This document shows positions 22,977 to 24,943 of a stretch of DNA of 45,386 nucleotides, piece after piece. Origin of the DNA: Elusimicrobiota bacterium. GTDB taxonomy: Bacteria > Elusimicrobiota > Elusimicrobia > Elusimicrobiales > UBA9959. The notes beneath the pieces are model-generated. The model did not search any database. It was not told the DNA's origin and was given only the letters and a program-made list of their open reading frames with translations. The stretch covers positions 1 to 45,386 of the forward strand of contig JACQPH010000036.1 in the NCBI GenBank assembly GCA_016207645.1, written 5' to 3'. The position numbers and the translations under genes are program-made. The first letter of the stretch is position 1, and each line of letters opens with the position of its first letter.

Positions 22977-24113
22977 TCAGAGCACGGCGTACAGCACCAG
23001 CTCGCAGGAAACCGGCTGATGCTGGCGCAGGAAAAGCCTGTACTCCGGCACCAGGGACTTGATGAACAGCGGTATTTCGAAAAGGTCCCCGGGCTTATGG
23101 TACAGGCAGACGGCCAGCTTGGGGCGGTTTTTCTTTATGGTGCCCGCGGCGCCCTTTAAAGCCTCGAGTTCCGCGCCTTCCACGTCCAGTTTTATATAGG
23201 TGGCGTCGGGGGCCGCATTATCTATGGCCTCCGTCTCTATGGAGACGGCCCCTGTTTCCGATATCGCCGAACCGGCCGGCCCTTCCGAGGCGGTAAAGCG
23301 CAGCGTATCCGCTTTGCTCCATAACCCCTTGCCTATCACGCTGACAGCGCGGAACCGCTGCCTGCCGGCCAGCTCTTTCAACTTGCTAATATTCTCCGGC
23401 TCAGGCTCGAAAGCGTAGCAGCGGCCGTACTTATTCCCCGCTTTCCGTATGAAAGTAAGCAGGGTATCCCCGGTGTAAGCCCCGCCGTCCACGAACACTT
23501 CGCGGTCCGAAAGCTTTATTATGTCTTCCGGGAAATATTGGTCCTTGCGCAGCACCTCGTACAGCGGCCCGGCGCCGCCGCCCAGTTTCGCGCCGAGGAA
23601 AGCGGCGTAGGTTTTCCGGGACAGCTCGTCCCCGAGCATTCCGTGTACCCGGCGGAAGCTCTCTTCATGCCGCTCGAGATAGGCGCGGTCCAGCTTATAA
23701 TCGAGCAGCGTGCCTATCACGTCGAAAGAATAGACGCCCGCTAGACGCCCGCTGTCCTTCCGCCGGAGCTTCTCTTCGGCCAGCCTGGAATTAGCGAAGG
23801 CTATAACGACGTTGAACCTTTCGAAGCGCCGCTCTATCTCGCCGAAGGAGACGGTCCCGGCGGAAGCGGCGCAGCCGTCGTCCGCGAAGCAGGCCGCGGG
23901 GCTCAGCCCGGAACGGGCCAGGTATTCCCGCACATAGGGCGCGTACCAGCCGTCCCCGTAAAGCACGATCGGAAAGCCGGAGGCCCTGAGAGCTTCGAGG
24001 TCCGCCCCCGCCCTCCCGGGCGCGGGTGTCAGTTCGTCGAGGAAATTTTTCACGTCCGTTCTTTCGGCAGCGCCCGGATTTTCTCCCGCCGTCCATATTC
24101 TATTATTTTCCAT
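22977..24113 (-). CDS. FkbM-family SAM-dependent methyltransferase
   Basis: The protein has 378 aa from the ATG at 24113. An in-frame ATG at 24140 would add nine residues, but it has no usable Shine-Dalgarno, and the interval contains an ECF-type promoter on the other strand. The N-terminal half (about 30-130) is Rossmann-like (FPIVLYGDGWYAPYVREYL), as in sugar-modifying proteins with an N-terminal nucleotide-binding segment. The C-terminal half is the FkbM domain: EVFVDGGAYTGDTLLTFI (SAM-binding loop), CYAFEPEPENISKL, TYIKLDVEGAELEALKGA and KLAVCLYHKPGDLFEIPLFI. FkbM enzymes O-methylate sugars or polyketides. The substrate here is unknown. Confidence 0.85.
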   Translation of the reverse strand: MENNRIWTAGENPGAAERTDVKNFLDELTPAPGRAGADLEALRASGFPIVLYGDGWYAPYVREYLARSGLSPAACFADDGCAASAGTVSFGEIERRFERFNVVIAFANSRLAEEKLRRKDSGRLAGVYSFDVIGTLLDYKLDRAYLERHEESFRRVHGMLGDELSRKTYAAFLGAKLGGGAGPLYEVLRKDQYFPEDIIKLSDREVFVDGGAYTGDTLLTFIRKAGNKYGRCYAFEPEPENISKLKELAGRQRFRAVSVIGKGLWSKADTLRFTASEGPAGSAISETGAVSIETEAIDNAAPDATYIKLDVEGAELEALKGAAGTIKKNRPKLAVCLYHKPGDLFEIPLFIKSLVPEYRLFLRQHQPVSCELVLYAVL

Positions 24114-24139
24114 GAAACATTTTCCGCGCGGGCGTGTCA
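24113..24139 (+). promoter_or_regulatory. ECF-type promoter upstream of the sigma-factor gene
   Basis: TGAAAC (24113-24118), 14 nt and CGTGTCA (24133-24139). The same two boxes with the same spacing occur at 24870-24896. Transcription would start near 24146 and cover the small ORF at 24179 and the ECF sigma gene at 24326. The first box overlaps the start codon of the divergent FkbM gene. Confidence 0.7.
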
Positions 24140-24178
24140 TATCCTGTGCGGGGAGGAACCCGCGGACGAGGGAGGAAT

Positions 24179-24310
24179 ATGATGAAAAGACTTATCGAAC
24201 TGGCGGGCGCGGCTTTCGGGCGGGAGACGGCTCCCGCCAAAGAGCTACAATACAGGTATGTTTTCGCGCCGCGCGCCTGCGGCGCTGGTTTCAGCGCGCT
24301 CTGGTTCTGA
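24179..24310 (+). CDS. Possible 43-aa leader ORF before the ECF sigma gene
   Basis: The ORF starts MMKRLIELAGAAFGRE and ends SALWF before TGA at 24308. A strong GGAGGA lies 3 nt before the first ATG (24179; a second ATG at 24182 gives better spacing). It lies between the predicted ECF promoter and the sigma gene, whose ATG is 15 bp past its stop. The product is short and basic with one Cys and has no family that I know. Its nucleotide sequence contains a hairpin, GGCGGGAG / CTCCCGCC, so it may be a regulatory leader rather than a protein with its own job. Confidence 0.4.
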   Translation: MMKRLIELAGAAFGRETAPAKELQYRYVFAPRACGAGFSALWF

Positions 24311-24325
24311 CGGTAAGCCCCGAAC

Positions 24326-24862
24326 ATGGAAAATGAAGAAGGCCTCCTGAAAAGGATAGCCGGCGGCGAAAAGGAATTTTTCGGCGAACTGGTGCTCAAG
24401 CACCAGGACTTCATTTTCAACGTGGTGAAAGGCTTCGTCAGGCTGGAAGAGGAGGCACGCGACCTCACCCAGGAGGTCTTCCTGAAAGCCTACGAGAACA
24501 TCGGGAAGTTCAGGGGCGACTCCAGGTTCTCCTCCTGGCTCTACCGCATAGCCTACAACCACAGCATGAACTGGTCGGAACGCAAGGCCGGCCGCGAAAC
24601 CCAGCTGGACGACGCCCTCGCGGAGACCATACCCGAAGAGCCGGGCGCGGCCGACGAAATGTTCGACAGGGAGCTGGTCCTTTCCAGGATAAAGGAGATA
24701 ATAGAGGACCTCCCGGTGAAATACAAGGTGGTCCTGAAGCTCCATTATTTCGAGGACAGGTCCTACCAGGAGATAGCCGACGCCCTCGGCATCCCCCTCA
24801 ACACGGTAAAGATACAGCTCCTGCGCGCCAAGGAGCAGGTCAGGAAAGAACTGGATTTTTAA
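24326..24862 (+). CDS. ECF (sigma-70 family group 4) RNA polymerase sigma factor
   Basis: The protein has 178 aa and no extra domain. Region 2 is clear (about 20-80: VLKHQDFIFNVVKGFVRLEEEARDLTQEVFLKAYENIGKFRGDSRFSSWLYRIAYNHSMNW), and region 4 is clear at about 120-175 (LPVKYKVVLKLHYFEDRSYQEIADALGIPLNTVKIQLLRAKEQVRKEL). It directs RNA polymerase to promoters of the TGAAAC/CGTGTC kind, by inference from the two matching sites around it. No ZAS-type anti-sigma gene (H-x3-C-x2-C) follows. The next gene is a membrane DUF4097-like protein, which could take that role or simply be a target. Confidence 0.95.
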   Translation: MENEEGLLKRIAGGEKEFFGELVLKHQDFIFNVVKGFVRLEEEARDLTQEVFLKAYENIGKFRGDSRFSSWLYRIAYNHSMNWSERKAGRETQLDDALAETIPEEPGAADEMFDRELVLSRIKEIIEDLPVKYKVVLKLHYFEDRSYQEIADALGIPLNTVKIQLLRAKEQVRKELDF

Positions 24863-24869
24863 AATAGTC

Positions 24870-24896
24870 TGAAACAATTCAGCGCTCAGCGTGTCA
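24870..24896 (+). promoter_or_regulatory. Second ECF-type promoter, upstream of the DUF4097-like gene
   Basis: TGAAAC (24870-24875), 14 nt and CGTGTCA (24890-24896), identical in boxes and spacing to 24113-24139 while the 14-nt spacer differs. It lies 48 bp before the ATG at 24944. GTCAAA at the -10 also resembles the E. coli RpoE -10 box. Confidence 0.7.
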
Positions 24897-24943
24897 AATA
24901 TAGGGAAGGGACGGCAAAGCCGCCCGGAGAAACAGGAGAGAAT

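Follow-up and report, generated by a model that had tools for sequence, protein, structure and literature searches.

The locus studied here, from a group of uncultured Elusimicrobiota bacteria, raises the question of whether two identical copies of a promoter-like motif, one ahead of a small ORF and an ECF sigma factor gene and the other ahead of a gene for a DUF4097 membrane protein, are read by that sigma factor, and what part the membrane protein plays. The whole stretch of DNA analysed, referred to as the window, is 45,386 nucleotides long. A preliminary description of the window had proposed a local ECF circuit in which the sigma operon and the DUF4097 gene each have their own promoter. 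The window was compared with 61 close genomes and with 341 genomes of the phylum Elusimicrobiota, and the sites, the sigma gene and the DUF4097 gene were found to co-occur, in agreement with this proposal.

Promoter-like sites around an ECF sigma gene

The window scan revealed TGAAAC-N14-CGTGTCA at 24113-24139 and 24870-24896, both on the + strand with 0 mismatches, as had been described, and no further site with up to two mismatches in the window. Base composition by itself predicts 0.0007 exact copies in the window and 0.04 in 2.8 Mb. The 2.8-Mb assembly to which the window belongs contained two copies at up to one mismatch and nothing more, and an extended 19-base motif at up to three mismatches matched P1 and P2 alone in this genome. 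A random distribution of the motif, which by the preliminary description would have spoken against a local circuit, was not seen: in the scans the motif kept to these loci and was not spread over the genome. The features of the locus are listed in Table 1.

Table 1. Positions of the features of the sigma-DUF4097 locus in the window.
Feature	Position	Strand	Basis or detail
Promoter P1 (microprotein-sigma operon), predicted	24113..24142	+	-35 TGAAACATTT 24113-24122; -10 GTGTCATAT 24134-24142
Microprotein, 43 aa, probable; leader of sigma gene	24179..24310	+	12 genomes with homologues; length differences keep the frame
ECF sigma factor, 178 aa, RpoE/AlgU/SigW-like	24326..24862	+	PF04542 and PF08281 above cut-off, TIGR02937
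Promoter P2 (DUF4097 gene), predicted	24870..24899	+	-35 TGAAACAATT 24870-24879; -10 GTGTCAAAT 24891-24899
GC-rich hairpin, predicted 5' end of DUF4097 mRNA	24908..24925	+	folding z -2.2
DUF4097/Toastrack membrane protein, 300 aa	24944..25846	+	Pfam PF13349, AlphaFold2, Foldseek, hydropathy

Alignment of 35 sites gave the consensus TGAAACATTT-N11-GTGTC(A/T)TAT, with GTGA-n-GGG further on, at about the predicted start. Conservation also extended to ATTT, the first four bases of the supposed spacer, and to the TAT that follows the -10 box, so the boxes are longer than the preliminary description gave. The base preceding GTGTC(A/T) was variable, and AAC-N17-GTC corresponds to the normal ECF spacing; therefore, the -10 core is GTC and not CGTG. 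The earlier box definition thus held for the location of the sites and their resemblance to ECF boxes, but not for the extent of the boxes or for the CGTG core. The hallmark boxes of ECF promoters are AAC and CGT (PMC8103513), and a -35 AAC, a -10 CGT or GTC and a rigid spacer were all found here, with AAC-N17-GTC in the 35 sites and one additional base in the G029 site; this arrangement is consistent with ECF promoters (PMC8103513, PMC6411747). The predicted transcription starts lie near 24146-24149 for P1 and near 24903-24906 for P2, which begins 7 nt past the sigma stop codon. Upstream of P1, a gene for an FkbM-type methyltransferase runs on the - strand (22977-24113), and its likely start codon overlaps the P1 -35 box, so that two divergent genes share sequence. 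The hairpin predicted at the 5' end of the DUF4097 mRNA was present in most but not all relatives, with different stem sequences; its z reached -3 to -4 in several relatives, and it was missing in G021, G032 and G147. It is a possible mRNA stabiliser.

The sigma protein contained the sigma2 and sigma4 domains alone, as in ECF (group IV) factors, and its nearest solved structures in the PDB were sigma-H (AlgU), E. coli sigma-E and SigW. In the SigW crystal structure, the -35 site is ATTGAAACCTTT (PMC6713349). Among the SigW residues that contact this DNA (T168, K170, T171, R172 and R175), three, the DNA-reading T, K and R of helix 9, were retained as T160, K162 and R167, invariant in the family, and the other two were changed to I163 and Q164. 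A scan for housekeeping promoters near the sigma gene revealed nothing relevant. Taken with the conservation described below, these features make it very probable that both copies of the motif are promoters recognised by the ECF sigma factor encoded next to them.

Conservation of the sites and size of the regulon

DUF4097 orthologues with an identity of at least 53% were found in 17 of the 61 close genomes (an 18th match, partial and with 25% identity, was left out of the count), and exactly those 17 genomes contained a sigma orthologue. Across the phylum, 22 of the 341 genomes, all of one family, carried a DUF4097 orthologue, and a P2-type site preceded every one of the 22 at about 57-190 bp from the start codon, with two mismatches in G147 and G002. 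The extended motif at up to one mismatch occurred in 24 of the 341 genomes, and the reversed-pattern control gave 0 matches in the same set. At the orthologous loci, the sites were always oriented toward the gene. A weight matrix built from 30 sites and run over 293 kb assigned those 30 scores of 31.8-46.2 and everything else scores of 10 or less. In the five distant members, the DUF4097 identity fell to 29-44%, and the sigma gene was present in all five; it was divergent in G142 and G144 and about 23 kb off in G140, with P2 kept. As judged from these comparisons, the sigma gene, the DUF4097 gene and the sites are gained and lost together.

P1 was less widely conserved. The motif preceded 14 of the 16 testable sigma genes of close relatives, which is the arrangement anticipated for positive autoregulation, a property of around 55% of ECFs (PMC8103513); the G029 copy had one extra spacer base. 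G006 and G014 lacked P1, and a search of the distant genera did not reveal it. Autoregulation, which the preliminary description had presumed as common among ECFs, is therefore supported for most close relatives but is not universal. As P2 was kept at all DUF4097 genes while P1 was not, the link between sigma and DUF4097 appears older or more constrained than autoregulation. In G014 (L063), a palindromic insert, GGGGACGTTCTTAACTATCGGA ... TCCGATAGTTAAGAACGTCCCC, was present upstream of the sigma gene in place of P1.

A search of 31 genomes with the exact 11-base core found, within the family, only these loci, a site at a contig end in G004 and one further G002 site, and the extra matches were about equal in number to those of the reversed control, which ruled against a larger regulon. 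Together with the 19-base search of the window's own genome, this suggests that the regulon consists of two promoters at the stringency used; weaker targets may exist. The G004 site (L042:257-286) matched the extended motif perfectly and had a DUF4097-like leader, but only a short ORF lay between it and the end of the contig, and no sigma orthologue was found in the G004 genome. In G027 (L193:4445-4474), we found a similar site, TGGAACATTTTTAGCTTTCCGGTGTCTAAT, directly before a distinct ECF sigma gene, with 28% identity.

These observations also bear on two ways of explaining the motif without the sigma factor. That the copies are chance repeats without function is next to impossible: only 0.04 copies are expected where the assembly has two, the reversed control was empty in 341 genomes, and the motif was conserved across 22 genomes in spite of a variable central spacer. 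That they are the site of an unrelated dimeric transcription factor is very improbable. TGAAAC...GTGTCA forms an imperfect inverted repeat (TGAaAC / TGAcAC) whose half sites agree at five of six bases at a fixed spacing, as a dimer site might; however, the halves were never swapped in the 35 sites, with TGAAAC always upstream and GTGTC always downstream, ATTT and TAT each flanked one side, and the last base of GTGTCA varied. The fixed orientation to the gene, the promoter-like distance and the fact that the sites track the sigma gene likewise disfavour this explanation and fit promoters read by the sigma factor.

The probable leader microprotein and the Toastrack membrane protein

The small ORF between P1 and the sigma gene deserves greater weight than it was first given, as the sequence comparison indicates that it is probably a real, conserved and translated microprotein. 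Twelve genomes, the window's among them, contained homologues; in each, the ORF lay between P1 and sigma, and no match of comparable score was found away from this sigma. They shared a conserved C-terminal core, K[DE][IV][EQ]Y.Y[IV][FY]...G.GF.AVC.G, and the stretch ahead of the conserved K varied in length between genomes with the frame kept. The microprotein had a strong ribosome-binding site of its own, that of sigma was poor, and the sigma ATG lay 5-15 nt past the microprotein stop in 11 of the 12 genomes; the short gap and the poor sigma site suggest that translation of sigma is coupled to that of the microprotein. In position, the microprotein is comparable to E. coli RseD, and RseD-like leader features (position, ribosome site and in-frame conservation) were present. 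The constraint was weak: pN/pS ranged from 0.55 to 0.78, with about 0.68 overall and 0.48 in the central core, compared with 0.24 for sigma. A Pfam search gave no match, and the AlphaFold2 model showed no confident fold (pLDDT 52) and was unusable. The ORF was absent in G005, G006, G014 and G029, some of which retain sigma and DUF4097. A motif within the ORF, AAAGA-nn-TA-n-AATAC (24239-24254 in the window), was kept just upstream of sigma also in three genomes without the ORF, G005, G014 and G006 (L062, L063 and L052), so part of the conservation of this region may be that of DNA or RNA; the motif may represent a housekeeping -10 element, or else what is left of the coding sequence.

The DUF4097 protein matched PF13349 (4.4e-12; 46.3 bits against a cut-off of 22.9). 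In the AlphaFold2 model, two long helices (residues 2-25 and 30-69) were joined by a disordered linker to a beta-helix modelled with confidence at residues 108-296, and Foldseek matches of the model included 4qrk and 4opw, which Ravi et al. cited as Toastrack examples (PMC11237479). With the PF13349 match and a predicted right-handed beta-helix fold, the protein has both characteristics of the Toastrack group. The hydropathy agreed with two N-terminal membrane helices. If both predicted helices cross the membrane, the Toastrack domain would be cytoplasmic and could encounter the sigma factor there; this probable placement is in line with the view in PMC11237479.

The preliminary description had noted that no classical anti-sigma gene follows. 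This was borne out by Pfam and TIGR profile searches of the neighbouring genes, which revealed none near the locus, and neither the DUF4097 protein nor the microprotein showed a recognisable anti-sigma motif. A conserved third gene was rejected as the anti-sigma gene, as none of at least 70 aa was found within 5 kb, a coarse test because the ORF calls in this GC-rich DNA include antisense frames. The literature searched gave no account of a DUF4097 protein paired with an ECF sigma factor; one match, on PadR repressors, did not concern such a pair in the part available.

The proposed circuit and its relation to known systems

It is highly likely that the locus is a self-contained ECF circuit in which this stress-type sigma factor directs RNA polymerase to P1 and P2, the two promoters of the consensus TGAAACATTT-N11-GTGTC(A/T)TAT in the genome. 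P1 would transcribe the leader microprotein and the sigma gene, by which the sigma factor would raise its own level, and P2 would add transcription of the membrane-anchored Toastrack protein. That protein would be the dedicated output of the circuit and possibly a membrane-bound feedback regulator, in the slot taken by RseA in E. coli. Weighing against the circuit are the lack of P1 in some members, the G004 site in a genome where no sigma orthologue was found, the two changed SigW contacts and the absence of a recognisable anti-sigma motif.

The role of the Toastrack protein can be read in two ways, which leave the sigma dependence of the promoters untouched. It may merely be an effector that protects the membrane or envelope, with the sigma factor controlled otherwise, for example through its own transcription or the microprotein; we give this an even chance. 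Toastrack proteins are associated with membrane-stress systems (PMC11237479), the core sigma-W regulon of B. subtilis includes yvlABCD, a Toastrack operon, as a simple target (PMC3498285), ECFs without an anti-sigma factor exist (PMC8999054), and the sigma-DUF4097 loci of Idiomarina and Woeseiaceae have a separate small membrane protein between the genes. Against a pure effector stand the lack of any other conserved nearby gene as candidate regulator, the predicted two-helix topology, which would bring the Toastrack domain within reach of sigma, and the members that lack the microprotein yet retain sigma and DUF4097. As an anti-sigma factor, the Toastrack protein is a fair candidate, if a tentative one: the layout resembles rseD-rpoE-rseA, no other conserved gene offers itself, P2 occurs at every DUF4097 gene, and the domain is probably cytoplasmic. 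The fuller proposal is that the two-helix Toastrack proteins form a new class of membrane-bound anti-sigma factors that tether sigma and release it on envelope stress, in a two-promoter regulon where the leader microprotein sets sigma translation, and we hold it to be possible but somewhat improbable. Control of sigma by the microprotein, as a small anti-sigma factor or as an arrest peptide acting on sigma translation, would be compatible with the circuit and is rather unlikely. The core conserved only ahead of this sigma and the close spacing to its weak ribosome site speak for such control; the modest constraint relative to sigma, the four genomes without the ORF, the lack of a confident fold and a conserved stretch that may partly be a DNA or RNA element speak against it.

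The closest parallel to the proposed circuit is the E. coli operon rseD-rpoE-rseA-rseB-rseC, in which sigma-E promoters precede rseD-rpoE and rseA, the second one making more anti-sigma factor (PMC8595263). Both loci have a sigma-dependent promoter, a short leader peptide, an ECF sigma gene, an internal sigma-dependent promoter and a membrane protein gene (promoters and leader as predicted here), although there are differences: the E. coli partner is RseA rather than a Toastrack protein, neither rseB nor rseC is present at the Elusimicrobiota locus, the rseA promoter P3 lies inside rpoE whereas P2 lies past the sigma stop, and the sigma-E regulon is wider and includes small RNAs. The B. subtilis SigW system shares the -35 sequence TGAAAC(C/A)TTT, the ECF geometry and a Toastrack protein, YvlB, in its regulon (PMC3498285, PMC11237479, PMC6713349). 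The SigW regulon is large, with RsiW as the anti-sigma factor; here, the Toastrack gene was the sole target found besides the sigma operon. SigW sites read TGAAAC-N16-CGTA, with the same geometry as the sites described here, and yvlB, a member of the SigW regulon, is not known to adjoin sigW.

The gammaproteobacterial loci of Idiomarina and Woeseiaceae (L138 and L141) also have an ECF sigma gene near a DUF4097 gene, but with an apparently single-helix membrane protein between them and a DUF4097 protein that, as read from the sequence, seems to start with a signal peptide and not with two helices. Their middle protein has no Pfam family and is a candidate for an unnamed anti-sigma factor. In the PSP/Lia systems, a membrane-anchored, PspA-free Toastrack protein likewise stands next to a transcription regulator (PMC11237479); the regulator here is an ECF sigma factor with dedicated promoters, and no PspA, PspC, LiaI-LiaF-TM or two-component genes were conserved at this locus. 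The autoregulated ECF circuit is thus of a known kind, and the tiny regulon, the leader microprotein and the Toastrack partner appear to be what distinguishes it.

Regulation in Elusimicrobiota has been little explored. The comparison supplies a full promoter consensus, including the -10 box and the region of the predicted start, for an ECF that seems to control only itself and a single Toastrack protein. The layout of rseD-rpoE-rseA would thereby be found again, with another membrane partner, in a phylum far removed from that of E. coli, and so minimal a circuit would make the role of Toastrack proteins in membrane-stress signalling directly testable.
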